Of a stretch of 64,000 bases of DNA, positions 8,023-48,933 are shown piece by piece. The position numbers and the translations under genes were made by a program. The notes beneath the pieces were generated by a model. It was not told where the DNA came from, made no database searches, and saw only the letters and a program-made list of their open reading frames with translations. Position 1 is the first letter of the stretch; the number at the start of each line of letters is the position of its first letter. Origin of the DNA: Methanococcoides sp. EBM-47 (GTDB taxonomy: Archaea > Halobacteriota > Methanosarcinia > Methanosarcinales > Methanosarcinaceae); assembly GCA_001896725.1 (NCBI GenBank), contig MPPA01000031.1, forward strand, positions 62,001 through 126,000, read 5' to 3'.

Positions 8023-9324
8023 GTGTCTGATAAAATAGACATTCACGACGACAAAGGTAAGCTGCTGGAAAGCGGCGTCGATCTTATGGACATTGCGCCA
8101 ACAAGGAACGCAGCCATACAGAAAATCGTCAAGGACACCAAGAGGACTGTTGCAGTTAACCTCGCAGGTATCGAAAATGCTCTTGCCAGTGGAAAAATGG
8201 GTGGCGCTGGTCGCCGTATCCTTGGCAGAGGACTTAAATACGACATTGTTGCAAACGCCAGTGCCATACAGGAATCTGTTGAAAGATTGATCAGGGTCAA
8301 AGAAGACGATGACAGCAATGTGCAGGTACTTGCAGGCGGAAAGCAATTACGCGTACAGGTCCCGTCCGTAAGGACAGCAATAGGTGCAGACTACATATCA
8401 GCAAGCACAGTGGGTGCAGCAGCTGTGGTACAGACGATCATCGACATGTACAAGGTAGACATGTTCGACGCACCTATCGTTAAAGGAGCGGTCTGGGGAA
8501 GCTACCCACAGACAATGGACATGATGGGCAGCAACGTTGCATCTATCCTCAGTATCCCACAGAACAACGAAGGTCTTGGCTACTCTCTGAGGAACATCAC
8601 CACTAACCACATTGCAGCCATCACAGGTAAGAAGGCCATGAACGCCGCAGCACTCTCATCCATCTTCGAGCAGGTAAGTATGTACGAGATGGGCAACACT
8701 GTTGGTTTGTTCGAGAGGCACCAGCTCCTCGGTCTTGCATACCAGGGTCTGAACGCTAACAATATGGTATATGACATTGTCACCGAGAACAAGAACGGTA
8801 CTATCGGTACTGTAGTGGCATCAACGGTTGAGAGAGCTATCGAGGACGATGTCATTACAGTTGACAAGAAGGCACCATCCGGATACAACTTCTACAAGGC
8901 AAAAGACGTTTCCAAGTGGAACGCATATGCAGCTGCTGGACTGCTTGCCGCTACCATGGTGAACGTTGGTGCAGGAAGAGCAGCACAGAACGTTTCTTCA
9001 TCTATTCTGTACTTCAACGACATCTTAGAGAAAGAGACAGGACTCCCAGGTTGTGACATGGGAAGGGTTCAGGGTACCGCAGTTGGATTCTCCTTCTTCA
9101 GCCACTCGATCTACGGCGGTGGTGGACCAGGTATCTTCAACGGTAACCACGTAGTTACCAGGCACTCCAGAGGATTCGCAATTCCTTGTGTATGTGCAGC
9201 ATGCTCACTTGACGCAGGTACTCAGATGTTCTCCATAGAAAGAACATCCGCACTTGTGGGCAACGTGTTCGGTTCAATACCAGAGTTCAGAGAACCGGTC
9301 AAGGCAGTTGCAGGAGCCCTCTAA
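8023..9324 (+). CDS. mcrB: methyl-coenzyme M reductase beta subunit
   Basis: McrB is part of the (alpha beta gamma)2 enzyme that reduces methyl-coenzyme M with coenzyme B, releasing methane. The protein is 433 residues, the usual size. It starts at GTG 8023, placed by a strong AGGAGG 8 bases upstream. The signature [15 protein letters not shown] lies at about residues 363-377, in the region that contributes to the coenzyme B and F430 pocket. It is the first gene of mcrBDCGA, with codon use typical of a very highly expressed gene. Confidence 0.98.
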
Positions 9325-9365
9325 AACCATTAATGTCCGATGTCATGATATCAAGGTGATCACAG

Positions 9366-9851
9366 ATGCCAGATACTTCCTCAGACACAATAGAACATCT
9401 GCAGCTTGAAATCGTTCCTCAGCGTTTGCTCAAGCCTGAAACAGCCCAAGCCCTTCTCAATGGGATACTGGGACTGGAAGGTGTTATCCGGTTGTTCGTT
9501 CATGGTCCCAGGTTGCCCGGCACAGTACCTTATGGCCCGGCAAAGGGAACTGCTATGACACATAATTCCCGCCGTCTTATAGAAATAGAAGGCAACATGG
9601 TGGAATTGGTTGTCAGTGTAGGCAGCATCCGTCTGGAAGTGGAAGACGCTGACGTGAAAGAACAGGTGCATGAGATATGCGAGAAGATCCTTCCGTTCCC
9701 CTTTGAGTTCAGAGAGGGGAATTTCATGCTTCGAAGGCAGACCGTCTCTGGCTATGCGAGGTTCGGACCTGATCAGAACCCCCTTCTGGTGGGGCTCACT
9801 GACCCTAAAGGCAAGCTAAGAGACCAGGTATGCATTCTCAAAAAGGAATGA
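9366..9851 (+). CDS. mcrD: methyl-coenzyme M reductase operon protein D
   Basis: McrD (161 residues) is the small operon protein thought to help assemble or activate MCR; it is not part of the finished enzyme. Family features seen are the N-terminal HLQLEIVPQRLLKPETA, the central VHGPRLP...GPAKGT, and FEFREGNFMLRRQTVSGYAR towards the C-terminus. It lies 41 bases after mcrB and 4 bases before mcrC, in the standard gene order. Codon use is less biased than in mcrB and mcrA, as expected for a lower-abundance accessory protein. Confidence 0.95.
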   Translation: MPDTSSDTIEHLQLEIVPQRLLKPETAQALLNGILGLEGVIRLFVHGPRLPGTVPYGPAKGTAMTHNSRRLIEIEGNMVELVVSVGSIRLEVEDADVKEQVHEICEKILPFPFEFREGNFMLRRQTVSGYARFGPDQNPLLVGLTDPKGKLRDQVCILKKE

Positions 9852-9855
9852 TATT

Positions 9856-10467
9856 ATGTTCGACCGGGAAACGCAAGTTGTTGACTGCAGGCATGGGATG
9901 GGCCTTGGAAGAGGCGGTGGCCTCGCTCAGAGAGGCACACTTTCTGAAACAGGAAGGTCCGATGTCATAGCAATTGCAATGAGCCCCGGAAGAAGACATA
10001 TCACAAAACCTGTATGCGAGCTTACATATGGTATGCGTCGCGAAGGGATACAGGTGAGCGTCCTGGTACTTAATACAGGATCAGGCATACCCGACACCAA
10101 CATGGGTTCAGGTACCTTCGGTATATCACCCGAAGAAATAGCCCAGATCTCAAGGCATAAACTTGCGGTCATACATACGGGCAATGTCAGGGACCATGTG
10201 GTAAAGAAAGTAAGGAACATGCTTGAGCAGGTGAATGTTCCTGCTATTATAGTGTGTCAGATCCCTGTGGATTTCGAGGACCTTGCAATGGCAGGAGTGA
10301 AGACAAGGCTTGTGAGGCCAAAAGACAAGGATATTGTGACAAAAGGAAAAGTAATGGAAATTGTGACAGGGGTTACACGAGGCGAATCATGTTCAAGGGA
10401 AAAGCTGAACGAGCTCGTGAAAGCCGTGAAAACCACAATGAAATCATTAGATGTTAGGAGTGTATGA
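9856..10467 (+). CDS. mcrC: methyl-coenzyme M reductase operon protein C
   Basis: McrC (203 residues) belongs to the ATP-dependent activation machinery (component A3) that reduces the nickel of F430 to the active Ni(I) state. The N-terminal stretch DCRHGMGLGRGGGLAQRGT and the central NTGSGIPDTNMG followed by FGISPEEIAQISRHKLAV are family signatures. It lies 4 bases after mcrD. Its TGA stop at 10465-10467 is 2 bases before the mcrG start, so translation of the two is probably coupled. Confidence 0.95.
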   Translation: MFDRETQVVDCRHGMGLGRGGGLAQRGTLSETGRSDVIAIAMSPGRRHITKPVCELTYGMRREGIQVSVLVLNTGSGIPDTNMGSGTFGISPEEIAQISRHKLAVIHTGNVRDHVVKKVRNMLEQVNVPAIIVCQIPVDFEDLAMAGVKTRLVRPKDKDIVTKGKVMEIVTGVTRGESCSREKLNELVKAVKTTMKSLDVRSV

Positions 10468-10469
10468 TT

Positions 10470-11219
10470 ATGGCATATAAACCACAGTATTATCCAGGTG
10501 CAACATCTGTTGCAGCAAACAGAAGGAAACACATGTCTGGCGATGTGGAAAAGCTCAGGGAAATCTCCGAGGACGATCTGGTTATGGTTCTCGGCCACCG
10601 TCCACCAGGCAGCGACTACCGCAGCACCCATCCTCCACTTGCAGAGATGGGTGAGCCAGAGTGTTCTATCAGACAGACTGTCGAACCAACCCCAGGAGCA
10701 AAAGCTGGTGACAGGGTAAGGTACGTGCAGTTCGTAGACTCAATGTATAACGGTACATCTGTACCATACTTCAGGACCTACAATGCGGCCATAAACTTCA
10801 GAGGCGTGGACCCTGGTACCCTTTCCGGCCGTCAGGTCATTGAGGCCCGTGAGAGGGACATGGAAGAGGTTGCCAAGTTCCAGATAGAGACCGAGATGTT
10901 CGATCCTGCACTTTCAAGCCTGAGAGGTGCAACTGTACATGGTCACTCTCTGAGACTTCCGGAAGATGGCGTAATGTTCGACATGCTGGACAGGGCAAGG
11001 CTCGAGAGCGATGGTATCGTAAAGATGCATAAGGACCAGGTAGGCAGACCTATCGACAAGAAGGTAGAACTCGGAAAACCAATGTCTGCAAAGGAAGCAG
11101 CAAAGAGGACGACCATCTACCGTGTGGACAATGTTGCGTTCAGGAGCGACACAGAGGTTCTTGAATGGGTTCACAGGGTTTTCGACCAGAGAACAAAATA
11201 CGGATTCAAACCGGAATAA
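10470..11219 (+). CDS. mcrG: methyl-coenzyme M reductase gamma subunit
   Basis: McrG is the third structural subunit of MCR. I start it at ATG 10470 (MAYKPQYYPG) because AGGAG at 10456-10460 is 9 bases upstream; the in-frame ATG at 10464 is only 3 bases from it. This gives 249 residues, the usual size, with the expected N-terminus GATSVAANRRKHMSG. The segments LGHRPPGSDYRSTHPPL and FRTYNAAINFRGVDPGTLSG are typical. It sits between mcrC and mcrA, 14 bases before mcrA. Confidence 0.97.
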   Translation: MAYKPQYYPGATSVAANRRKHMSGDVEKLREISEDDLVMVLGHRPPGSDYRSTHPPLAEMGEPECSIRQTVEPTPGAKAGDRVRYVQFVDSMYNGTSVPYFRTYNAAINFRGVDPGTLSGRQVIEARERDMEEVAKFQIETEMFDPALSSLRGATVHGHSLRLPEDGVMFDMLDRARLESDGIVKMHKDQVGRPIDKKVELGKPMSAKEAAKRTTIYRVDNVAFRSDTEVLEWVHRVFDQRTKYGFKPE

Positions 11220-11233
11220 TCGAGGTGACATAA

Positions 11234-12952
11234 ATGGCAACAGACAGAAAGAAGATGTTCGCAAGAGACTTGGAGATCAAGTTCACAAAAGAGCACGGTA
11301 CCAACAAGATGGAAGGTGGCAAGATCACTGACATGGTTGGTAGGTACTACAGGCTCGGTGTTGACCAGAACCCAAGGAAACTTGAAATGAAGAAGGCAGG
11401 TCAGGAATTAGCCAAGAAGAGAGGACTTGTCGGTTATAACCCAATGTTACATTGTGGTGGTATACCACTTGGTCAGAGGGCACTTACCCCATCCTTCGTA
11501 TCAGGTACTGACATGCTGGTAGAGACCGATGACCTGCACTACGTGAACAATGCAGCAATGCAGCAGATGTGGGATGACATCAGGAGAACCGTGATTGTCG
11601 GTATAGACCTGGCACACGAGACCCTTGAGAAGAGACTGGGTATCGAGGTCACACCAGAAACCATCAACTTCTATCTTGAAACCCTCAACCATGCCCTTCC
11701 AGGCGGTGCAGTGGTCCAGGAACACATGGTAGAGACCCACCCCGCACTTGTGGATGACTGTTACTGTAAGGTATTTACTGGTGACGATGAACTTGCAGAT
11801 GAGATCGACAAGCAGTTCCTTATCGATATCAACAAGGAATTCCCGGCAGAACAGGCAGCTCAGATAAAGGCAGCCATCGGAAAGACAACCTGGCAGGCAG
11901 CTCATATTCCAACCTTGGTCAGCAGGGTCACAGACGGTGCCCAGACCAGCAGGTGGATGGCCATGCAGGTCGGTATGTCCTTCATTTCTGCATACAGCAT
12001 GTGTGCCGGTGAGGCAGCGGTCGCTGACCTTTCATATGCAGCAAAGCACGCTGGTGTAATCTCCATGGGTGAGATGCTCCCTGCAAGGCGTGCACGTGGT
12101 CCTAACGAGCCAGGAGGTATCTCCTTCGGTCACCTCGCAGATATCATACAGACCAGCCGTGTAGATCCAGAGGATCCGGCACACGTAGCCCTTGAGGTAG
12201 TAGGTGCAGGCTGTATGCTCTACGACCAGATATGGCTTGGTTCATACATGTCAGGTGGTGTCGGTTTCACACAGTACGCAACCGCAGCATACACCAACAA
12301 CATCCTGGATGACAATCTGTACTATGACGTAGACTACATCAACGACAAGTACAACGGTGCAGCCAAGAAGGGCACTGACAACAAGGTAAAGGCAACTCTG
12401 GAGGTTGTCAAGGATATCGCCACAGAGTCCACTCTGTATGGTCTTGAGAACTATGAGAAATACCCGACCGCACTTGAGGACCACTTCGGAGGCTCCCAGA
12501 GGGCAACCGTGCTTTCCGCAGCAGCTGGTGCCGCAACAGCTCTTGCTACCGGTAATGGGAATGCAGGTCTTTCCGGCTGGTATCTCTGTATGTACTTGCA
12601 CAAGGAAGCATACGGCCGTCTTGGTTTCTTCGGTTTCGATCTGCAGGACCAGTGTGGTGCAACCAACGTGTTGTCCTATCAGTCCGACGAGGGTCTGCCT
12701 GTTGAACTGCGTGGACCAAACTACCCCAACTACGCCATGAACGTAGGTCACCAGGGTGGATACGCTGCAATAGCATCTGCAGCACACGCTGGCCGTGGCG
12801 ATGCATACGCAGTGAACCCGCTCATCAAGGTCTGTTTCGCAGATAGCCTCCTGCCCTTTGACTTTACCGCACCAAGGAAAGAATTCGGTAGGGGCGCACT
12901 GCGCGAGTTCATGCCCGCTGGTGAGAGATCGCTCATCATCCCGGCAAAGTAA
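11234..12952 (+). CDS. mcrA: methyl-coenzyme M reductase alpha subunit
   Basis: McrA (572 residues) carries most of the active site with the nickel cofactor F430. The sites of the usual post-translational modifications are visible: the N-methylhistidine in AAKHAG (residue 272), the 5-methylarginine in ARRARG (286), the thioglycine in [11 protein letters not shown] (467) and the S-methylcysteine position in the same motif (474). These correspond to His257, Arg271, Gly445 and Cys452 of Methanothermobacter marburgensis. The arginine is the target of the neighbouring Mmp10. GAGG-type ribosome binding sequence (CGAGGTG) lies a few bases before the ATG. A hairpin terminator follows 19 bases after the stop. 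Confidence 0.98.
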
Positions 12953-12971
12953 ACCCAAAGATAAAACAGTG

Positions 12972-12998
12972 GTAGGCTTTATGCCTACTTTTTTCTCT
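12972..12998 (+). terminator. intrinsic-type terminator of the mcr operon
   Basis: Six-base arms GTAGGC and GCCTAC enclose a TTTAT loop and are followed at once by six T and a further pyrimidine-rich stretch. It starts 19 bases after the mcrA stop, so it most likely ends the mcrBDCGA transcript. Confidence 0.8.
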
Positions 12999-13127
12999 TT
13001 TTCCATTAATACGATCCGTGTTCCAGCGGTTTATTCAGCCAGCTTTCCTAAGTATTATATATCATGCAATTCCTCTCCATATAGTTATAGTATATCTAGG
13101 ACTACCCGTTTCCATGGAGTGTCACCT

Positions 13128-15179
13128 ATGCAATATAGTCTGGGAATAGATGCCGGCGGAACTTTTACGGATGCTGTCCTCATTCGTGATACGGATGGAG
13201 TGATAGTGCAGAAAACAAAGGTAATGACCACATATCCTGACCCTTTGGGCGGGATAAGCAGGGCTATCGATGAGCTGGATAAGGAGTATGTCCGTAATGT
13301 TAAATTGGTATCGGTTTCCACCACACTTTCCACTAATACCATCCTTGAGGACACTGGATTTCCTGTGGCCGCCATCCTTGTAGGGGATTATTCGATACCA
13401 CAAGAAGGGTTCCCTACACCGAATTATATCATGGTGAACGGCGGCCATACAAGTAATGGCGAAGAGGCTGCTCCCCTGGATGAGGAAAAAGTAAGATCGT
13501 TCGCTCAGGAAGTAAAGGACAAGGTGGCTGCCTTTGCAGTCTCTGCTTTTTTCAGCAATAGGAATTCAGACCACGAGCTTAGGGTGAAGCACATAATTAC
13601 AGAACTAACAGGGTTGCCTGTGGTATGTGGTCATGAACTGTCCCAAGATGTGGGAGCATATGACCGCGCGATAACCGCATACCTCAATGCTCAATTACTC
13701 CCTATCACACATCAGTTCATACAGTCCATACTTAAAGATATTCGTGCAAGAGGGATCGATGCAAGTCTACTTATGCTTAAATGTGACGGTTCTGTAGTAG
13801 GTATGGAAGAAGCACTGGAGCGTCCGATCGAATCTATCTTCTCAGGTCCTGCGGCAAGCCTTGTAGGTGCATCCTTTCTTGCAAAAATTGATACTTGTGC
13901 CATGATAGATGTAGGTGGTACCAGTTCTGACGTCGCTCTTATAAAGAATGGGGTGCCTGAGCTCAGTGATCATGGTGCCATTGTAGGGGGCTGGAAGACC
14001 ATGATCAAAGCTATCCGCATGGAAACCTCAGCCACCGGAGGGGATAGTCATGTGTGGATCAGCGACCGTAAATTCCATGTGGGGCCCCGCAGGGCCATTC
14101 CTCTCTGCCGCGCAGCACAGCAGTACCCTGGTTTTCTGAAGCAGTTGCAGGAGAGCAAGAACCCTTCCAAAAAGACCCTTTGTGAGAACGTGCAACCCAC
14201 AAAATATTTTGTGCGTACTGGGTCCAAACCTATCGACCTTACAAGAGGCGAAGAAGAGATATATGATTATATCTTGCACACTCCAGTATCCTATGTAGAT
14301 CTATTCCAGAAAATGAAAAAACAGCCAAGTATCTATGCTATAGACAACCTCATCAAAAAGCGTCTGATACAGGCCATCGGTTTTACCCCAACAGATGCGC
14401 TCCATGTACTTGGTGAACTGAAGAAATGGGATGTGGAAGCATCTGTTGCAGGTGCAGAAAAGCTGGCAAAAATATTGCATCTGGATAAAGAGGAATTCTG
14501 TCGGCAAATTAAAAGCAAGGTTGCAAGGAATATGGCAGCAGCCCTGATATCTTATCTCATAGAAGATATACCTGCCAATATTGTGCAGCGTGTACTTTCT
14601 GGTGAGAACTTCACCCGTTTTAAGATCGAAATACCTGTTGTACTACTAGGTGGACCTGTGTGGGCTTTCAAGGAAGAGATGGATAAGCTCATTGATGCGC
14701 CTTTCATCGTACCTGAGAACGCAGAAGTGGGCAATGCCGCAGGGGCACTGGTAGGCAAAGGTATAAAGAGAGTGGAGATACTTATCAAGAAACATTTCTC
14801 TCCTATTACTGGAGAAGGTGTTTCGAATGAGGAACTCAAAACTGCAAAAGAGGCAATAGAATACTTTGTCTTTACTCCTGAAGGAAGAAAGGTCTTTGGG
14901 GACCATGTTGAAGCCATTTCGTTTGCAATCGAGGCTGGCAGAAAAACAGTAATGGACTACATGATCGGTGCAGGGTATTGCAGCAATGAAGTTGAGATCA
15001 CTGTTACCAGAAAGGACATGGTGATCGCTGAGGGAGAAAAACCCATGGAATCCAAGATCATTGTGGTGGGTGTGGGAATTTCCCGTATAGTGATGAAAAA
15101 GAACTGTATCCCTGAATATATGAGTAAAAAGGCGATCAGTTTCAGCAAAGCGATTGACAGGTCATACTCCGGAAGATGA
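13128..15179 (+). CDS. HyuA-like hydantoinase/oxoprolinase-family ATPase (paralogue 1)
   Basis: This 683-residue protein has the actin-like ATPase fold of the hydantoinase A/oxoprolinase family. The first phosphate loop is GIDAGGTFTDAVLI (residues 5-18), the second is MIDVGGTSSDVALI near 260, and LLGGPVWAF lies near 505. The start is ATG 13128, with GGAG 8 bases upstream; a longer in-frame extension runs back into mcrA and is rejected. A block at about 365-430 resembles a winged helix and ends in GFTPTDALHVLG. The usual HyuB partner is absent nearby, so the substrate is unknown. A second copy follows aroA. It lies after the mcr terminator and has its own TATA-like sequence near 13053, so it is probably a separate transcription unit. 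Confidence 0.85.
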   Translation: MQYSLGIDAGGTFTDAVLIRDTDGVIVQKTKVMTTYPDPLGGISRAIDELDKEYVRNVKLVSVSTTLSTNTILEDTGFPVAAILVGDYSIPQEGFPTPNYIMVNGGHTSNGEEAAPLDEEKVRSFAQEVKDKVAAFAVSAFFSNRNSDHELRVKHIITELTGLPVVCGHELSQDVGAYDRAITAYLNAQLLPITHQFIQSILKDIRARGIDASLLMLKCDGSVVGMEEALERPIESIFSGPAASLVGASFLAKIDTCAMIDVGGTSSDVALIKNGVPELSDHGAIVGGWKTMIKAIRMETSATGGDSHVWISDRKFHVGPRRAIPLCRAAQQYPGFLKQLQESKNPSKKTLCENVQPTKYFVRTGSKPIDLTRGEEEIYDYILHTPVSYVDLFQKMKKQPSIYAIDNLIKKRLIQAIGFTPTDALHVLGELKKWDVEASVAGAEKLAKILHLDKEEFCRQIKSKVARNMAAALISYLIEDIPANIVQRVLSGENFTRFKIEIPVVLLGGPVWAFKEEMDKLIDAPFIVPENAEVGNAAGALVGKGIKRVEILIKKHFSPITGEGVSNEELKTAKEAIEYFVFTPEGRKVFGDHVEAISFAIEAGRKTVMDYMIGAGYCSNEVEITVTRKDMVIAEGEKPMESKIIVVGVGISRIVMKKNCIPEYMSKKAISFSKAIDRSYSGR

Positions 15180-16463: not shown

Positions 16464-16836
16464 TTATGCACAACCCCATCTTGTAAAATTTCTGCTCATG
16501 GGAACTCTCAGCTTCCCTGGCATTCCGATCACAAGGGTAATACTGCACAATGTGAATTAAGGATTTCGTTAACATCTTATAAAAGATTTAATTAAATACA
16601 TATATGTGTATACTGTGAATACATTTATACTAAAATGTTGAACAAACATATCAACTTAATGAATTTTGTTATTTACAAACAGTTAGATCCCGAAGGTATC
16701 AAGTGGGCTGTAGAGACATGGACCTTGCACAGTCTGCAGAAAAAGATTTAAATATTACTCTTTATCTGAAGTTATTTACATTAGAACAAATATTCAAAGA
16801 ACAAAAAAGGGTTACACTTTTGAGGTGAAGAGCATT
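16464..16836. other. intergenic region between divergent aroA and the second HyuA-like gene
   Basis: This 373-base AT-rich spacer holds the two divergent promoters. A TATA-like CTTTTATAAG lies near 16577-16584 on the minus strand for aroA, and GATTTAAATATT near 16745-16756 can serve the plus-strand gene. A near-palindromic ACATATATGTGTATAC is at 16598-16613 and resembles the hairpin that follows the downstream gene. I see no convincing gene. The ribosome binding site GAGGTG at 16822-16827 sets the next start. Confidence 0.4.
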
Positions 16837-18786
16837 ATGCAATATGGTCTTGGAATGGATGTAGGCGGAACATATACTGACGCTGTTATCATTAGAGAGG
16901 GTGATGAACAGATAGTAGATTATGCAAAGTCACCCACAACACATCCTGACCTGCTGACTGGCATTCAAAACGTACTTGACTCCCTGAGTACATCCTATCT
17001 TGAAAACGTGACAACGGTTTCCATTTCAACCACACTTGTTACTAACACCATTCTTGAAAATAATGTCTCAGAAAAAGCATCCGCCTATAACGTTGCACTT
17101 ATCATGGTAGGCGATACTGATCTGCCACCAAATTCTTCGATCCCCTATTCCATCACTGTGCAAGGAGGGCATAATGCAAATGGGAATGAAAACTACCCTC
17201 TTGAAAAGGACAAAGTCAAAAAATTTGTGATAGACACTAAGGATAAAGTAGATGCTTATGCGGTTTCTGCACATTTCAGCATTAGAAATCCTGATCATGA
17301 ACTGAAGGTAAAAGAGATCATTGAGGAACTGACAGATTTACCTGTGGTTTGCGGACATGAACTCTCACAATCCTTAGGTTCCTATGAACGGGGTGTAACA
17401 GCTTGTCTTAATGCACAATTGGTCCCTATCTCTACCCGGTTCATGAACACAGTGGTTTCAGAGATAAAAAGACGTGGGATCAATGCAAAAATAATGATGC
17501 TCAAGTGCGATGGTTCAGTGGTCAGCATCCAGGAGGCTCTCAGGCATCCCATAGAATCCATATTCACTGGTCCTGCTGCCAGTCTTGTCGGTGCATCATA
17601 CCTTTCAAAAAAAATGAATTGTATAGCCATTGATGTTGGTGGAACCAGCACAGATGTTGCAAAAGTGACTGATGGTATCCCCGAGATCATAGATGAGGGA
17701 GCTGTCGTTGGCGGGTGGCAAACTAAAGTAAAAGCTATACGTATGGAAACCTCTGCAATGGGAGGTGATAGCCATATATGGATCAAGAACCAGGAGATCA
17801 ATATTGGGCCGCGTAGGGCCATTCCTATTTGTGCTGCTAGTGCAAAATGGCCGATCCTCAAAGAAAAATTAAAGAAAAAAAACATCCCATCAAAAATGCA
17901 ACTCTGCAAAACCATACAGCCAACTATATTTTTTATTCGCACAGATGTCATTCCCGATGGACTGAGTAAAACCGAAGAAGAGTTGTTGAGCCGTATAGAT
18001 GACGAACCAAGATCGATCAATGAACTATATCCTGATAGCCTGCCCTCTCCCATATTCCTTGACCTTTTAATTGAAAAAAAACTTGTCCAGGCGATCGGGT
18101 TCACCCCAACTGATGCATTGCATGTCCTTGGTCATTATACTGAGTGGGATCAAGAGGCTGCAAGAATTGCTGCTGATGTTCTGGGAAAAATGATGCTTTC
18201 AGAAAGTACGGTGCTATGCAAAAAAATCAAAAAGATGTTTGCAGAGAATATGGCCTCTTATACTATGGCTTATTTGCTGAAGGGAATTGACAAAGGAGAA
18301 ATTAAAAGGATAATTGCTAACAAAGATGAATACCTATCCAAGTTCAAGGTTGGAGTAACAGTTGTTCTGCTTGGGGGGCCGGTCAGAGCATATCTGGATG
18401 ATATGAAAGAGATGATCGAAACAGAGATAATTTTGCCGGAATATGCAGAAGTAGGTAATGCAGTTGGTGCTATAGTAGGCAAAGTCATTAAAAGAGTAGA
18501 GATACTCATACGAAAAATCCATGAAGACGACAATGTAACTGTGATGATGTTTTCTCCAAATGGAAGAAAAAGATGTCTAAGCTATATGCATGCTCTTGAA
18601 GAAGCAGAGAAGGAAGGCAGACAACTCCTCCTTCAATACCTTAACAACTCTGGCTTTTCTGCCGATGATTTCAAAATTGAATCTATAAGGCAGGATATTA
18701 AAATCAATGAGAACGATACATTCCCATTAGAAACAAAAATTGTCTTTATCTGTCAGGAGATAAAGAAAAACGGATCATATGAATAG
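16837..18786 (+). CDS. HyuA-like hydantoinase/oxoprolinase-family ATPase (paralogue 2)
   Basis: This 649-residue protein is a clear paralogue of the one at 13128. It shares GMDVGGTYTDAVII at the N-terminus, VVCGHELSQSLGSYERG, LKCDGSVVS, the second loop AIDVGGTSTDVAKV, METSAMGGDSHIWI, GFTPTDALHVLG and LLGGPVRAY. The start is ATG 16837 because GAGGTG lies 9 bases upstream; the GTG at 16825 overlaps that site. Most divergence is in the middle winged-helix-like block and the C-terminus. Codon use is more AT-rich than in copy 1. No HyuB-like partner is adjacent, so the activity cannot be assigned. Possible roles include ATP-dependent opening of a cyclic amide; this is inference from the family. 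Confidence 0.83.
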   Translation: MQYGLGMDVGGTYTDAVIIREGDEQIVDYAKSPTTHPDLLTGIQNVLDSLSTSYLENVTTVSISTTLVTNTILENNVSEKASAYNVALIMVGDTDLPPNSSIPYSITVQGGHNANGNENYPLEKDKVKKFVIDTKDKVDAYAVSAHFSIRNPDHELKVKEIIEELTDLPVVCGHELSQSLGSYERGVTACLNAQLVPISTRFMNTVVSEIKRRGINAKIMMLKCDGSVVSIQEALRHPIESIFTGPAASLVGASYLSKKMNCIAIDVGGTSTDVAKVTDGIPEIIDEGAVVGGWQTKVKAIRMETSAMGGDSHIWIKNQEINIGPRRAIPICAASAKWPILKEKLKKKNIPSKMQLCKTIQPTIFFIRTDVIPDGLSKTEEELLSRIDDEPRSINELYPDSLPSPIFLDLLIEKKLVQAIGFTPTDALHVLGHYTEWDQEAARIAADVLGKMMLSESTVLCKKIKKMFAENMASYTMAYLLKGIDKGEIKRIIANKDEYLSKFKVGVTVVLLGGPVRAYLDDMKEMIETEIILPEYAEVGNAVGAIVGKVIKRVEILIRKIHEDDNVTVMMFSPNGRKRCLSYMHALEEAEKEGRQLLLQYLNNSGFSADDFKIESIRQDIKINENDTFPLETKIVFICQEIKKNGSYE

Positions 18787-43177: not shown

Positions 43178-43652
43178 AGAGAGGCCGGCAAGTGCCTCAA
43201 ATTACCTTTATTGTAAATATAATTAAGTGAAATGAAGAAAATAACTTTTGTGCTTCGATCACTGGCCTTTCATACACACCGCACTTATACTTTTCTTTTA
43301 TATCTTCTAATTTCTTTTAGAGATTTTACTTTGCTAACACATGTTTGCAATTAATACAATCTGTCTTTATTTGTTACTAAAATTTGAAATGGTCCTATTT
43401 GTCTAACTATATTAAGATCACAGTAAAAAAGATCATGCTATTAAAATAAATCATGCTATTAAAATAAAACCCATATTGAACATGTCCTTTAAGCTATACG
43501 ATATAATAAAGTACTTATCTGTTTGACATTAAACTAACTAGATACAAAAAGCAAAAACTGATCACTATCTTCTCCTGCAAAACAAGGGATCTTAAAGGGA
43601 AAACAGGAGAGAACTATTAGATAAATTAGAAAACCAAGAGGAGCGGAAGAAA
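43178..43652. other. intergenic leader region of the 593-residue gene
   Basis: No gene is visible in these 475 bases. A TATA-like ACGATATAATAAAG near 43498-43511 suggests transcription from about 43535 and a leader of about 120 bases. In that leader TCTCCTG (43571-43577) and CAGGAGA (43604-43610) can pair around a 26-base loop. The ribosome binding site GAGGAG is at 43638-43643. An 18-base tandem repeat lies upstream at 43432-43467. Confidence 0.4.
43432..43467. repeat. two perfect 18-base tandem repeats
   Basis: The unit ATCATGCTATTAAAATAA occurs twice in direct, perfect tandem. It lies about 30-60 bases upstream of the predicted TATA box of the 593-residue gene, so it may be an activator or repressor site. 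Slippage of AT-rich DNA is the simple alternative. Confidence 0.7.
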
Positions 43653-45434
43653 TTGGAAAAAGAGGTCTTTGCCGGGGCCATGGCTGCGGTATCCCAGATA
43701 GAGAATATAACCAACGATAGGATAGAAGCACTGACAAAAAGTCACGGAATGACGAATATTGCAGCTATCTGTGCAGCTAATGCTATAGCCACTGAAGTGT
43801 TGCGGGGTGTAAACATAATGCTCACAGATGAGGATGCCCCAGATCTGCAGATAGATGATGTACTGAAGAAAGGTATAGATGCTGCTGTTGAGGCAGGTGC
43901 TGATCCTGCCAACGCTGCTTTATTCGCTGCTGTTATCTGTTACTTTGCTGGTTCCAATGCCCAGGCAGGTGTTCCTGCAGGCAATAGGAAACTTGGAGCA
44001 CTGGCAAGGATGGCCGCAAAGGTACCAAGAGCTGGAGTGCTAGCTGTGCCTACACCTAAGAACAACAATAAAATATCGGGTTTTGCTGCAGTACAGGCAC
44101 TGTATCAGGCACTTGCTGAAGGTAGGGTCACAAAGGTCGTGGGTAAAAACCTGCCATTAGGAGTAGCAGGGGGTCCATTATATGGTCATAATACCTTGGG
44201 AGAGGACATGGGATTTGCTGAGATCGCAATTAATGGTGCAAAGGTGGCCACTCAAGGAATGATAGATGCTTATAGTGGTGCAGGTGTTTCCCCAAGCCCA
44301 GTGATCAGTGCCATATTGGGTGTAGCTGCAGCTCTTGAGGTTGTGCATCCGGACTCTTTTGTTGCAGAGGAATATGGTGATTTCTTTGATGTCAATAGTG
44401 CGTATCTTGCAGGTAAGGCAGCATGCGAGGTTGCCGGCATCCCTGAAAAATTACATATCAGGGGTACAAACGAAGAATATGATGCTGCAAGAGTGATAGG
44501 TGACATGGGGGTAATAATAAAGGATATTGGTGCGCCCACCGTTGTAGGTATGATGTCCTTTGGAGAGATGCTTTGTGCCTTCCAGGAGTCTATAGCTATT
44601 GGAGCAGGTTTCTCCGGTGGACCTATTATGCCTCCATTAGGGCATATGACCGCAGATGCTATTATAGCACTGCGCTGTCTTATCCATACAGGTAACGACA
44701 AAGACAAAGCAATGGACATCATAGCTAATATAAAGAAAACCGAGTGGCTTGATCCGGAAATGGCTGCAATTGGTGCAAATACCATCGCAAGAAAAGCAGA
44801 ACAAGTGCGTAGAGGACCAATTACACATACAATAATAGCAGCTACTGATCCTGCAAGAACAGCTGCAATTTTTTATAGGGCACAGAAAACCTATGATGAT
44901 CTTAAATCTGGAAAATCTGTGGAAGATGTTGTAAAAGAACTTGATGAGCAAAGGAAGGCAACTGTGGAGAGGAATGCTGCAGCTATGTTGGGAATGATGA
45001 CTGGCCATAAAGTGGAGATAAAGATCCAAAAGGTGGTCGGTGGTGCCAGGCGTAGCCATCCCTTCACAAATTCTTACTATGGTTTTGACACCGATGCAGA
45101 TGTAGACATCACGGTAGACGGGAAGAAGTTCCAACTGCAGGGTTTGGGACAAAAAGTCATACCCGAAGCAATAATCAACAATGATAAGGACATATTGGGC
45201 ATAGTTCCATTAGCAGCTATTCCAGTGACTGAGATGCAGCTATCTGGGCACACCATAATAAACATCACAGTGCCTGCAGCTGTAGCCGCAGCTATGGGAA
45301 TAGAAGAACCAGCCGAAGCGGCAAAAAAATGTGAGCTTGGGGGGAAAGGGTGCAGTGCAGCTATTCCCGGTGCAAAGGCTAAAGCAAAGGCAGTTGCCAA
45401 ACTTGCCAAGAAAATGATGGAAGCTATGGTGTAA
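43653..45434 (+). CDS. 593-residue protein of unknown function, first gene of a larB/larC-like block
   Basis: I do not recognise this family. The start is TTG 43653, set by GAGGAG 9 bases upstream. The protein is rich in alanine, glycine and methionine and has no signal peptide or membrane helix. Conserved-looking blocks are LPLGVAGGPLYGHNTLGEDMG (about residues 168-188), SGGPIMPPLGHMTADAI, and the tail KKCELGGKGCSAAIPGA, a CX6C pair followed by a lysine- and alanine-rich helix. Nine or more histidines are spread through it. The next genes are a LarC-C-terminal-like protein, larB and larC, which in bacteria make the nickel-pincer nucleotide. It could be an enzyme that uses or helps make such a cofactor; this is inference from context only. 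Confidence 0.85.
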   Translation: MEKEVFAGAMAAVSQIENITNDRIEALTKSHGMTNIAAICAANAIATEVLRGVNIMLTDEDAPDLQIDDVLKKGIDAAVEAGADPANAALFAAVICYFAGSNAQAGVPAGNRKLGALARMAAKVPRAGVLAVPTPKNNNKISGFAAVQALYQALAEGRVTKVVGKNLPLGVAGGPLYGHNTLGEDMGFAEIAINGAKVATQGMIDAYSGAGVSPSPVISAILGVAAALEVVHPDSFVAEEYGDFFDVNSAYLAGKAACEVAGIPEKLHIRGTNEEYDAARVIGDMGVIIKDIGAPTVVGMMSFGEMLCAFQESIAIGAGFSGGPIMPPLGHMTADAIIALRCLIHTGNDKDKAMDIIANIKKTEWLDPEMAAIGANTIARKAEQVRRGPITHTIIAATDPARTAAIFYRAQKTYDDLKSGKSVEDVVKELDEQRKATVERNAAAMLGMMTGHKVEIKIQKVVGGARRSHPFTNSYYGFDTDADVDITVDGKKFQLQGLGQKVIPEAIINNDKDILGIVPLAAIPVTEMQLSGHTIINITVPAAVAAAMGIEEPAEAAKKCELGGKGCSAAIPGAKAKAKAVAKLAKKMMEAMV

Positions 45435-45496: not shown

Positions 45497-46045
45497 GTGC
45501 TCTTGATGACAAATGTAGACAATATCAACTGTGAACATGTGCCTTATCTAATTGATGAGCTGATGAAGAAAGGTGCAAGTAATGTACATGTCTTGCCTGC
45601 TATTACCAAAAAAGGCAGGAGCGAGTATATTTTTTTAGTTGATACGGTCAAAGCCCATGCTGAAGAGCTGGCAGAGTTCCTGGCACAGGAAACAGGAACC
45701 CTTGGTGTAAGGTTTCTGGAAGGTGAGCATCGTGTGTTCGAGCATGAAATAAGGAAACTTGACATCTCCTTTGGGAACAGCCATCAAGATGTACTGTGGT
45801 GCGGACCCATAGATTTCAAGATCGTACATGATATTAAAGGTAATGTAATATCTGTAAGAGCAGAATATGAACAGATTAAAGAAGTTGTTGAAGAGCTCAG
45901 ACAGAAGGAACTAAACATTTCTTTCTATGAGATAAAAGGGATGATAGAACAGCGTGCTCTTATACAATTTAAAAATTTTAGTAGGACGTTGAAAAAAGAG
46001 GAGATAAGTCAGCCGGGCACTTTATATTTTTCAGTTAATGGTTAG
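45497..46045 (+). CDS. stand-alone homologue of the LarC C-terminal domain
   Basis: This 182-residue protein matches the C-terminal half of LarC encoded in this window: TNVDNIN versus TNVDDVT, PAITKKGRSEYIFLV versus PATMKKGRTGHIIKV, and QETGTLGVRFLEGEHR versus RETGTLGVRVIPTKHR. In LarC this half takes part in CTP-dependent insertion of nickel into the pincer nucleotide. The N-terminal half with LHFHEVG is absent here. GTG 45497 is the best start (GAGGT 6 bases upstream), though ATG 45506 is in frame. It sits between the unknown protein and larB, so it is probably a specialised subunit of the same pathway. Confidence 0.82.
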   Translation: MLLMTNVDNINCEHVPYLIDELMKKGASNVHVLPAITKKGRSEYIFLVDTVKAHAEELAEFLAQETGTLGVRFLEGEHRVFEHEIRKLDISFGNSHQDVLWCGPIDFKIVHDIKGNVISVRAEYEQIKEVVEELRQKELNISFYEIKGMIEQRALIQFKNFSRTLKKEEISQPGTLYFSVNG

Positions 46046-46103
46046 ATAGGTCTAGAAAGCATCTTAAGCTTTTATACTTTTATATCAATATAAGCACGTG
46101 AAT

Positions 46104-46913
46104 ATGAACCTGAGAGATATCCTGCTTAAAGTAAAGAACAATGAAACAGACCTGAATGCAGCCGAATCTCTTATACGCGGCATGGGTTATGTGCCTGTTT
46201 CCGATATCGCGAAGATCGATGTCTGTCGAAGTCAGCGCACAGGTATAATGGAAGCTATCCTTGCAGAGGGAAAAGAGCCTGAGGATGTGATAAAAATAGC
46301 AAAAGCCCAAGTGGATGCATGTGGCAGAGTGCTTGTAACACGTCTTAATGAAATTAATGTAAAAATGATAGAAAAAAACTTCGAACCTGAACAGCTGGAA
46401 TGGGGAAAGCATAAAAGAACAGTGGTGGTGCATAATGGCACGCCTGTTACCAGAACAGGTGGAGTGGTAGCAATAATTTCTGCTGGCACTGCTGATATCA
46501 CGGTTGCCGAAGAGGCTCGCATAGTAGCTTCTGAAATGGGATGTAAGACCATTGATATCTATGATGTGGGGGTCGCGGGTTTTCACAGGCTTGTTGGTGA
46601 AATGCTTAAACTTCAGGCATATAAGCCAGATTCAATAGTGGTAGCTGCTGGCAGGGAGGGTACCTTACCTACAGTAGTGTCAGGTCTGATAGACGTACCC
46701 GTGATAGGTGTGCCCGTATCTACAGGTTATGGAGCAGGTGCAAAAGGTGAAGCTGCGCTTCTTTCTATGTTGCAGTCATGTTCTGTGCTTGCAGTAGTGA
46801 ACATCGATGCAGGATTCGTTGCAGGAGCCTTTGCCGCACGGATAGCCAATAATGTTGCCATGGCCCGTAGCGGGAAAACTGGAGAGACTGTATATGAGAA
46901 CAATGGTCTTTGA
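46104..46913 (+). CDS. larB: pyridinium-3,5-biscarboxylic acid mononucleotide synthase
   Basis: LarB carboxylates nicotinic acid adenine dinucleotide and cleaves off AMP, the first step to the nickel-pincer nucleotide. The 269-residue protein has the N-terminal MNLRDILLKVKNNE with AESLI, and the PurE-like C-terminal domain with IISAGTADITVAEEA, VYDVGVAGFHRL and VPVSTGYGAGAKGEAAL. I choose ATG 46104, since homologues start MNLR; a GTG lies 6 bases upstream. There is no ribosome binding site, but a TATA-like TTTATACTTT near 46071 predicts a start of transcription at about 46100, so larB may have its own leaderless promoter. Its end overlaps larC by 20 bases. Confidence 0.93.
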   Translation: MNLRDILLKVKNNETDLNAAESLIRGMGYVPVSDIAKIDVCRSQRTGIMEAILAEGKEPEDVIKIAKAQVDACGRVLVTRLNEINVKMIEKNFEPEQLEWGKHKRTVVVHNGTPVTRTGGVVAIISAGTADITVAEEARIVASEMGCKTIDIYDVGVAGFHRLVGEMLKLQAYKPDSIVVAAGREGTLPTVVSGLIDVPVIGVPVSTGYGAGAKGEAALLSMLQSCSVLAVVNIDAGFVAGAFAARIANNVAMARSGKTGETVYENNGL

Positions 46914-48093
46914 TGCTTTTTCAGGTGCTTCCGGAGATATGATCCTTGGAACCCTTATTTCTCTAGGAGCCGATGGAGAAAGAATACGGCAGATCATAGA
47001 GTCGGCAGTTGATGTATCAGTAAGGATAGAGAAAGTGAAGAAAGGGGGAATCCATGCAGTGGATGTCCATATAGATGTAGAACATGAGGAACATGCGCGT
47101 CGTTATGAAGATCTTGTGGACATTGTGCAGAATGCAGGGTTATCTACAAAAGTTGAACATAGTGCTCTGGCAGTTTTCGGGATCATGGCCAAAGCTGAGT
47201 CAGAAGTGCACGGTGAATCCCTTAAAGATCTGCACTTCCATGAGGTAGGCCAGAACGATGCTTTAGCTGATGTCATAGGTTCATGTTTTGCGATGCATGA
47301 GATCGGTGCTGATGCAATATACTGCCTGCCCATTAATGCTGGAGGAGGAAGAGTTAAGGCTGCCCATGGTTCCATGCCTGTACCGGCTCCTGCCACCCTT
47401 GAGATCCTGCGATCCTCGGGACTGTCATTCTATGGTTCTGGAAACCGAGAACTCCTCACGCCCACGGGAGCCGCCATCCTAAGCCATTTTGCCAGACCGA
47501 TAGAAAATTATCCAAGTGGAAAGGTCCTTTCCATTGGGTACGGTGCAGGGGATGCTGATACAGATAGTCCAAATGTGCTGCGTAGCATTCTCATAGATAC
47601 GGATGATGATATCTCCAAAGATTCCATCGAGGTGCTGGAAACAAATGTGGACGATGTGACCGGGGAAGTGCTGGGTAACCTATTCGAAAAATTGTTGTCA
47701 ATGGGGGCAAAAGATGTTGCTATTGTCCCTGCGACCATGAAAAAAGGACGTACTGGACATATAATAAAAGTAATCACAAGATCCGAACACAGTGCTGTCA
47801 TTGCAAGAGAGATCATGAGAGAAACTGGTACTTTGGGAGTTCGTGTGATACCGACCAAACACCGTTATACTGCAGACAGACGCATAAACAGTGTACGAGT
47901 CATTATGTGGGGAAAAACATACGATATGCCCGTGAAAATATCCGAGGACCGTAATGGTGAGATCCTGCACATTTCTGCGGAGTATGAAGACTGCAAGCGA
48001 GTTGCTAAAGAATTAAATATACCTCTTAAGGACGTAATACGAAAAGTGGAAGAGCAAGCATGGAATGTCCATGGGCCCCATGATCGGTTCTGA
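46894..48093 (+). CDS. larC: nickel-pincer nucleotide nickel insertion protein
   Basis: LarC inserts nickel into the pincer nucleotide using CTP. I start at ATG 46894 (MRTMVFDAFSGASGDM), with GGAG 9 bases upstream inside larB, giving 399 residues. The N-terminal domain has FSGASGDMILG and the metal-type motif LHFHEVGQNDALADVIG near residue 110. The C-terminal domain starts near LETNVDDVTGEVLG (about 246). In Lactiplantibacillus plantarum larC is two frames joined by frameshifting; here it is one frame. LarE and LarA are not in the window. Confidence 0.94.
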   Translation: MRTMVFDAFSGASGDMILGTLISLGADGERIRQIIESAVDVSVRIEKVKKGGIHAVDVHIDVEHEEHARRYEDLVDIVQNAGLSTKVEHSALAVFGIMAKAESEVHGESLKDLHFHEVGQNDALADVIGSCFAMHEIGADAIYCLPINAGGGRVKAAHGSMPVPAPATLEILRSSGLSFYGSGNRELLTPTGAAILSHFARPIENYPSGKVLSIGYGAGDADTDSPNVLRSILIDTDDDISKDSIEVLETNVDDVTGEVLGNLFEKLLSMGAKDVAIVPATMKKGRTGHIIKVITRSEHSAVIAREIMRETGTLGVRVIPTKHRYTADRRINSVRVIMWGKTYDMPVKISEDRNGEILHISAEYEDCKRVAKELNIPLKDVIRKVEEQAWNVHGPHDRF

Positions 48094-48531
48094 TGCTGGT
48101 TGATAATTAAAATAATAAGATGGAATGGGTCTAATAAATTAACACATCTTCGATGGATTATTTCTGGAATTGTACAAGAAAAGAAGAGAATGCAAAAAAG
48201 TACATGGCCATATAAAAGATAATATGAACTTCGATATCAGAAGAATATGAATAGAGAACAAAGCTTTCTCTTCTTTGCTCAATTTTGTTTCTTATCAACT
48301 TTTGATGCTTACTGAATTATAAGTAAGGTCAAGCTTAGGAATTCGTTTGGTAGGTTATTCTAAAAGTGTACATCAGGTCAGAACAGGGATCAAAGGAGCT
48401 AATTAGATGGTCTCGATTGCTTTACATACTGAAATATCATTAACTATAAATAGAATAATATGAATAGGATTCTAGCTTTTAAATAATATTTTTAATACTG
48501 TTTCATGGTCTGTATAAAATAGGTGATTAAT
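48094..48531. other. intergenic region downstream of larC
   Basis: This 438-base AT-rich spacer has no gene I would call. An 18-codon frame at 48407-48463 (MVSIALHTEISL) has a good AAAGGAG site 8 bases upstream but no other support. AGGTGATT at 48521-48528 is the ribosome binding site of the next gene. Confidence 0.35.
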
Positions 48532-48933
48532 TTGAAAATAAGAATACTAAGTTCAAAAGAAGAAATAGACACCCTTCACCAAAATGAAGAAATGATACAT
48601 CTGGCTTTCAGGCCTTCAAATACAGATATTTTTTCAATCATCTCAAAATGCCCTAAACTTAAGGCTATCCACATGCCTACATCTTATAAGAAAACACTTT
48701 CCAAGTCATCTCTCATGTTCCTAGAAATGCAGAACATAAAAATCCTGGAAGGTGATGTGTGGGGACACAGAGAAGTAATAGAAGAATATTCTGAGATCTC
48801 ACAAAATGTTTATGATAAGATCCAGGAATATAAGGAAAAAGGGATGTCTGATGAAGAAGTATTAAAACAAATGAGATCAGAAACAAGCTTAAGTTCCGAT
48901 ATTCTTTCATTCCTCATCCGCAGAACTAAGTGA
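48532..48933 (+). CDS. DUF1699 family protein
   Basis: This 133-residue protein is a DUF1699 member, a family of Methanosarcinales with unknown role: KIRILSSKEEIDTL, IHLAFRPSNTDIFSII, SYKKTLSKSSLMFLEMQ and ILEGDVWGHR. The TTG start at 48532 is chosen because AGGTGATT lies a few bases upstream and the family begins with MKIR; the GTG at 48523 lies inside that site. The C-terminal EKGMSDEEVLKQMR followed by LSSDILSFLI looks like a helical DNA-binding or protein-binding segment. Confidence 0.87.
   Translation: MKIRILSSKEEIDTLHQNEEMIHLAFRPSNTDIFSIISKCPKLKAIHMPTSYKKTLSKSSLMFLEMQNIKILEGDVWGHREVIEEYSEISQNVYDKIQEYKEKGMSDEEVLKQMRSETSLSSDILSFLIRRTK

Follow-up and report, generated by a model that had tools for sequence, protein, structure and literature searches.

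A candidate NPN-dependent enzyme family, unrelated in sequence to LarA, encoded beside nickel-pincer genes in archaea and bacteria

The window, the whole 64,000-nucleotide stretch of archaeal DNA analyzed here, contains a co-directional run of four genes, headed by one encoding a 593-aa protein that we label Q and continuing with a short LarC2-like gene, larB and larC. The cofactor concerned is the nickel-pincer nucleotide (NPN), which LarB, LarE and LarC build starting with nicotinic acid adenine dinucleotide; proton-coupled hydride transfer is the reaction for which LarA employs it (PMC11770544; excerpts of PMC11796402). The run has the following features.

43638..43643, + strand: Shine-Dalgarno-like GAGGAG, directly before the TTG start of Q
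43653..45434, + strand: protein Q, proposed non-LarA NPN-dependent enzyme (open reading frame, archaeal and bacterial homologs, conserved His/Lys/Arg/Asp set, confident model without a PDB fold match)
45497..46045, + strand: short LarC2-like protein, 182 aa, 62 bp after Q (Pfam Ni_insertion, 7e-25; NCBIfam nickel_LarC2, 80.1 bits against a cut-off of 50)
46098..46913, + strand: larB, first NPN biosynthesis enzyme, 52 bp beyond the short LarC2-like gene (NCBIfam LarB, 231 bits against a cut-off of 175)
46894..48093, + strand: larC, full-length nickel insertion protein (Pfam Ni_insertion, 1.9e-129; NCBIfam LarC1 and LarC2)

The likely start of larC is the ATG at 46894, which overlaps the end of larB. 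The rest of the source genome contains a LarE-family protein above cut-off (279.6 bits) and one LarA homolog. The decisive evidence for Q, its neighboring nickel-pincer genes, lies outside coordinates 43653-45434, to which the original prediction was confined. The best relative of Q is 95% identical and occurs in a Methanomethylovorans MAG; consequently, we assign the window DNA to a methanogen close to Methanomethylovorans. Farther away, the window holds what we take, from the translations, to be mcrBDCGA (8023-12952) and, just downstream of this operon, two hydantoinase/oxoprolinase-like proteins of similar sequence (12858-15179 and 16825-18786) that flank a minus-strand aroA-like gene, all three recognized by eye in the translations. 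Downstream of larC is an archaeal DUF1699 protein (48523-48933; PF08004, 5.2e-57).

Homologs of Q in many archaeal and bacterial genera are open over their full length at 40-95% identity, and the reading frame is therefore confirmed as real, beyond chance. As first described, Q is an alanine- and glycine-rich protein (17.0% and 9.6%) whose TTG start has a Shine-Dalgarno sequence about 9 nt upstream, seen in AGAGGAGCGGAAGAAATTG, and whose C-terminal KKCELGGKGC precedes a Lys/Ala-rich tail. Two other elements of that description stand in part. The supposedly repeated loops, GGPLYGHNTLG from residue 173 and GGPIMPPLGHM from residue 322, are both present, but they have only GGP and a later GH in common. 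The histidines, described as many, number ten (1.7%), which is ordinary; it is the near-invariance of five of them that is unusual.

Searches of Pfam, PHROGs and PDB sequences returned no match to Q, and NCBIfam returned a chance-level match only. When 23 and then 59 members of the family, or their profiles, were scanned, there was still no known family; the few profile matches were partial, one being a designed repeat protein, and candidates such as NCBIfam thiazolyl_GetA and Pfam Fe-ADH_2 were rejected as short, below cut-off and differing between members. No viral relatives were confirmed. An AlphaFold2 model built from 59 aligned members (mean pLDDT 93.3, pTM 0.92) predicts a protein that is largely helical, with a small beta portion at about residues 454-496. 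A Foldseek comparison of this model with the PDB gave nothing at E ≤ 0.001, and TM-scores among the matches listed were below 0.25. The model supersedes an earlier one from 23 sequences (pLDDT 77), which left the conserved loops unresolved: many invariant residues fall in its poorly predicted loops (23-30, 102-111, 167-185, 321-330 and 465-478). Neither model has a PDB fold match. The original prediction had placed the protein in no known family and proposed profile searches and structure prediction; both agree with it, the latter by yielding a confident model that resembles no solved fold at that threshold. The family may nonetheless be present as an unnamed 'uncharacterised protein' entry in AlphaFold DB, COG or arCOG.

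Conservation was counted across an alignment of 59 diverse members. Thirty-five positions with polar or charged residues reach at least 93% conservation, five of them histidines (H31, H179, H232, H268 and H331), while the other histidines and all cysteines vary. Invariant residues include N111-R112-K113, R119, R126, K136, E184-D185, E229, D234, D284, D291, E312, R466-R467 and D479. The alignment marks the following positions within the gene.

43743..43745, + strand: codon of His31, invariant (59/59)
43983..43991, + strand: codons of Asn111-Arg112-Lys113, invariant, in the loop GVPxGNRKLG
44169..44189, + strand: first GGP..GH loop, G173-H179 (His179, 59/59)
44346..44354, + strand: codons of His232-Pro233-Asp234 (His 58/59, Asp 59/59)
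44454..44456, + strand: codon of His268 (56/59)
44616..44645, + strand: second loop, GGPIMPPLGH, G322-H331 (His331, 58/59)
45048..45053, + strand: codons of Arg466-Arg467, invariant
45330..45353, + strand: CX6C tail, Cys560 and Cys567, not conserved (4/59 and 5/59)

The near-invariant histidines and the invariant polar residues support, at the level of aligned sequences, a polar functional site with several histidines. Because five histidines are conserved and each GGP..GH loop carries one of them, a metal or cofactor centre is plausible, as suggested by the proposal of a metal-binding core. The same alignment separates the histidines from the two tail cysteines, whose variability leads us to reject a CX6C metal site. 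The hinted internal duplication is likewise discarded; profile-profile comparison of different parts of Q with each other gave a probability of at most 1.5%.

Neighboring genes were then scored, using profiles built from the neighbors themselves, at 81 Q loci, which share descent in part and so cannot be counted as 81 independent events. At 73 of these loci, Q has a LarC-family gene no more than 320 bp away, across archaea, Bacillota, Pseudomonadota and others; it is the short LarC2-like protein in 50 cases and a full-length LarC in 23. Q is thus adjoined by NPN synthesis genes, as would be expected of an NPN-dependent enzyme in the wide sense. Three of the eight remaining loci are cut short (L096, with 13 bp left on the contig; L064, with 596 bp; and L116, where the contig starts inside Q). 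Within 8 kb of Q, larB occurs at 34 of the 81 loci, larE at 18 and a NicO-type nickel permease at 10. The link is found again on each side of the divide between archaea and bacteria, and the connection between Q and the NPN pathway is strong.

The rhizobial gene order is Q-larC2-larC-larE-larB-nickel permease, in which every gene but Q serves either NPN synthesis or nickel uptake. On the Rhizobium tropici CIAT 899 plasmid pRtrCIAT899b, the annotated order is a hypothetical protein (Q, WP_004112731.1), larC, a LarC family protein, two small hypotheticals, larB and HoxN/HupN/NixA, the two small hypotheticals occupying the place of the relatives' larE. We observe larE as two adjacent pieces (matches of 135 and 131 aa) in the Q operons of several Rhizobium strains (L131 15607-16413, which is R. 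tropici pRtrCIAT899b; L106-L108; and L119), representing a frameshift or a split larE. Long antisense reading frames over Q in high-GC loci were dismissed as frame artefacts. At three loci from UBA6113 and Anaerosphaera (L057, L058 and L060), DUF1893 and the substrate component of an ECF transporter come after Q, LarC2 and LarC1 (L058 9846-12200).

The short partner encoded in the window is, by its sequence features, a member of a stand-alone LarC2-like subfamily that is distinct from LarC. The subfamily retains the K-K-x-R motif of LarC as well as its Gly, Lys and Glu positions, has its own invariant histidine where LarC mostly has arginine, and is additional to full-length LarC in Methanosarcinaceae and rhizobia. 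Such a histidine is what one would expect if the partner were adapted to a different client. We also note a sequence relationship between the subfamily and Methanopyrus MK0293 (PDB 3c19), which is still described as uncharacterized.

At least 108 relatives of Q exist: this number was confirmed when contigs of 84,980 species were scanned, and 80 of them were kept. Archaeal holders include Methanosarcinaceae, Methanocella, Methanomicrobiales, Archaeoglobi, Thermoproteota and one Thorarchaeote; bacterial holders include Lachnospiraceae, Eubacterium, Sporomusa, Anaerosphaera, Rhizobium, Mesorhizobium, Sinorhizobium, Paracoccus and beta- and gammaproteobacteria, with acetogens and other clostridia among the groups represented and a few others besides. 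Several are in culture: R. tropici CIAT 899, Eubacterium callanderi, Sporomusa acidovorans, Paracoccus thiocyanatus and several Methanosarcina. A midpoint-rooted tree divides the family into an archaeal and a bacterial side, with one Desulfuromonadaceae MAG inside the archaeal side. Q occurs in 34 of 295 genomes of the phylum sample and in 20 of 200 genomes of the class Methanosarcinia. Broken or frameshifted copies are seen in some methanogens (G374:C1:1136995-1137622, G407:C15:4201-5331 and L115 8001-9505), consistent with recent loss or assembly error. This patchy presence, together with the broken copies, suggests that Q is often lost.

No Lar_N (LarA) match was found in 21 of 47 Q-bearing genomes: all ten rhizobia tested, P. 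thiocyanatus, four gammaproteobacteria, two Anaerosphaera, two other clostridia, one Methanoculleus and one Thermoprotei MAG. Several of these are drafts or MAGs, for which single absences are weak evidence, but the rhizobial set agrees throughout. LarB is above cut-off in 18 of the 21, and in these 18 genomes Q could be the sole recognizable NPN user, with unknown users possibly coexisting. LarB above cut-off was not found in the two Anaerosphaera species and the Thermoprotei MAG; both Anaerosphaera may import an NPN precursor rather than make NPN. In a sample of 151 Rhizobiaceae genomes, seven have LarB and one of the seven has Q; of the six others, three have LarA, two have a weak LarA-like match within about 3 kb of larB, and one has neither.

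Among the 200 Methanosarcinia genomes, LarA is present in 187 and LarB above cut-off in 185, far exceeding the 20 with Q. Because LarA is so much more widespread there than Q, Q is not required for making NPN. By the same token, with LarA in the source genome and in nearly all Methanosarcinia, the NPN genes there need not serve Q. Some Methanosarcinia genomes have LarB with neither LarA nor Q; four such genomes (G139, G142, G149 and G150) come from one order, family and genus (f3, g16). Q therefore does not explain all orphan NPN pathways. These genomes may contain further NPN users, or LarA may be absent from the assembly.

The counts also help to distinguish a user of NPN from an accessory of its biosynthesis or delivery, such as a nickel chaperone, a LarC2 insertase partner or a cofactor carrier. 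The conserved histidines would suit an accessory, as would the identity of the closest and most constant neighbor, a nickel-insertion protein that in many proteobacteria lies only 0-21 bp from Q. We consider an accessory role unlikely: LarA in Methanosarcinia receives its NPN without Q, the 21 genomes have no LarA to be served, and a protein of about 590 aa with many invariant polar residues suits an enzyme better.

LarA binds NPN via Lys184 and His200. Invariant Lys and His also occur in Q, whose binding of NPN is a prediction. Homology to LarA was rejected on the following comparisons. The Lar_N domain (PF09861) was found neither in a Pfam scan of Q nor among the matches of the 23 and 59 members; hhalign of LarA against Q gave a probability of 1.3%; and Foldseek, with the pLDDT 93 model as query, placed no LarA among the best 50 matches listed. 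The idea that Q descends from LarA remotely or by rearrangement, and that these searches overlooked it, draws on a string common to both proteins, AGFSGG, which in LarA is found shortly before the NPN-attachment lysine and which is overlapped by the sole Q-LarA profile-profile alignment. The residues that follow it are Pro-Ile in Q and Arg-Lys in LarA, however, and taken with the profile and fold comparisons, they make such an origin highly improbable.

Bacterial neighborhoods offer hints about the substrate. A PatB-family C-S lyase recurs at nine loci, RidA at eight and D-cysteine desulfhydrase/D-cysteate lyase-like proteins at four, and amino-acid transporters of different families also recur; together, these neighbors span Bacillota, rhizobia and one Synergistote. 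No neighbor of this amino-acid type (PatB, RidA or transporter) was seen at the archaeal loci. On the basis of these recurrent neighbors, our best guess, a tentative one that we rate less likely than not, is an amino acid or close derivative as the substrate, at least in bacteria. RidA, an imine remover, would fit a PLP lyase or a hydride transfer via an imine. The combination of PatB/MalY, RidA and an ABC transporter in tropical-legume symbionts raised mimosine catabolism as a rhizobial lead, which was dropped: a literature search did not connect it with these genes, and it leaves the methanogens unaccounted for.

The same neighbors could instead belong to an ordinary amino-acid or organic-acid enzyme that does not use NPN, whose lar linkage would stem from a common pathway, as when LarA and Q work on one metabolite; a LarA homolog does lie near Q at some Bacillota loci (L101, L112, L114 and L120). 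Where LarA is missing, in the 18 genomes that have Q together with LarB, such a LarA step cannot be the reason for the linkage, and the cofactor genes are the constant companions in all lineages, whereas other neighbors vary. We regard an NPN-free enzyme as very unlikely.

Our preferred reading is that Q is a non-LarA NPN-dependent enzyme, unrelated to LarA in sequence and with a model matching no solved fold, and we judge this probable. The reading frame, the family, the linkage, the LarA-free genomes with Q and LarB and the conservation are directly legible in the sequences; NPN binding, catalysis, ligands and reaction are what we infer. Q would be the apo-protein, LarB, LarE and LarC would make NPN for it, and the adjacent LarC-type protein, short or full-length, would probably finish or hand over the nickel cofactor. 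NPN would sit in a pocket whose walls are formed by the invariant loops (around H31, N111-R112-K113, G178-H179, H232-P-D234, H268, G330-H331 and R466-R467), where histidine could act as nickel ligand and as acid/base, and Arg/Lys could hold the phosphate and carboxylates. The reaction, if it resembles that of LarA, may be a reversible hydride transfer, resulting in racemization, epimerization or isomerization. With somewhat less assurance, we lean towards Q as the founder of a second, independent NPN enzyme class with a new fold, shared by archaea and bacteria and possibly carrying out hydride transfer on amino acids rather than 2-hydroxy acids.

To our knowledge, LarA is the one class of proteins known to use NPN, an organometallic pincer cofactor of biological origin, and we know of no characterized NPN-dependent enzymes beyond the LarA/Lar_N superfamily. 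If our reading is correct, a second, unrelated protein scaffold has adopted NPN, which would bring a new reaction type to nickel enzymology. Q gives the predicted non-LarA NPN proteins a named candidate that can be tested in cultured organisms.

Compared with known systems, Q resembles the LarA/Lar_N superfamily (PF09861) in its linkage to larB, larC and larE, in its invariant His and Lys and in its probable use of NPN. It differs in lacking sequence similarity, in length (about 590 aa, compared with about 425 aa for LarA), in a model without a PDB fold match and in its frequent occurrence in genomes without LarA. The partner gene of Q belongs with the LarC/LarC2 nickel insertion proteins (PF01969, NF052512; PDB 6bwo and 12bi) and MK0293, but Q itself is unrelated to them, and the partner differs from LarC in standing alone and in its invariant histidine. 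In published surveys, larA is missing from about 15% of genomes although larB, larE and larC are present, and non-LarA NPN-binding proteins have been predicted (excerpts of PMC11796402). Our literature search found this enzyme class predicted, with no member identified in the papers found. The excerpts of PMC11796402 name no candidate protein and stress cyanobacteria, a group not represented among the 80 Q loci listed; Q fits the prediction in rhizobia, Paracoccus, Gammaproteobacteria and some clostridia.
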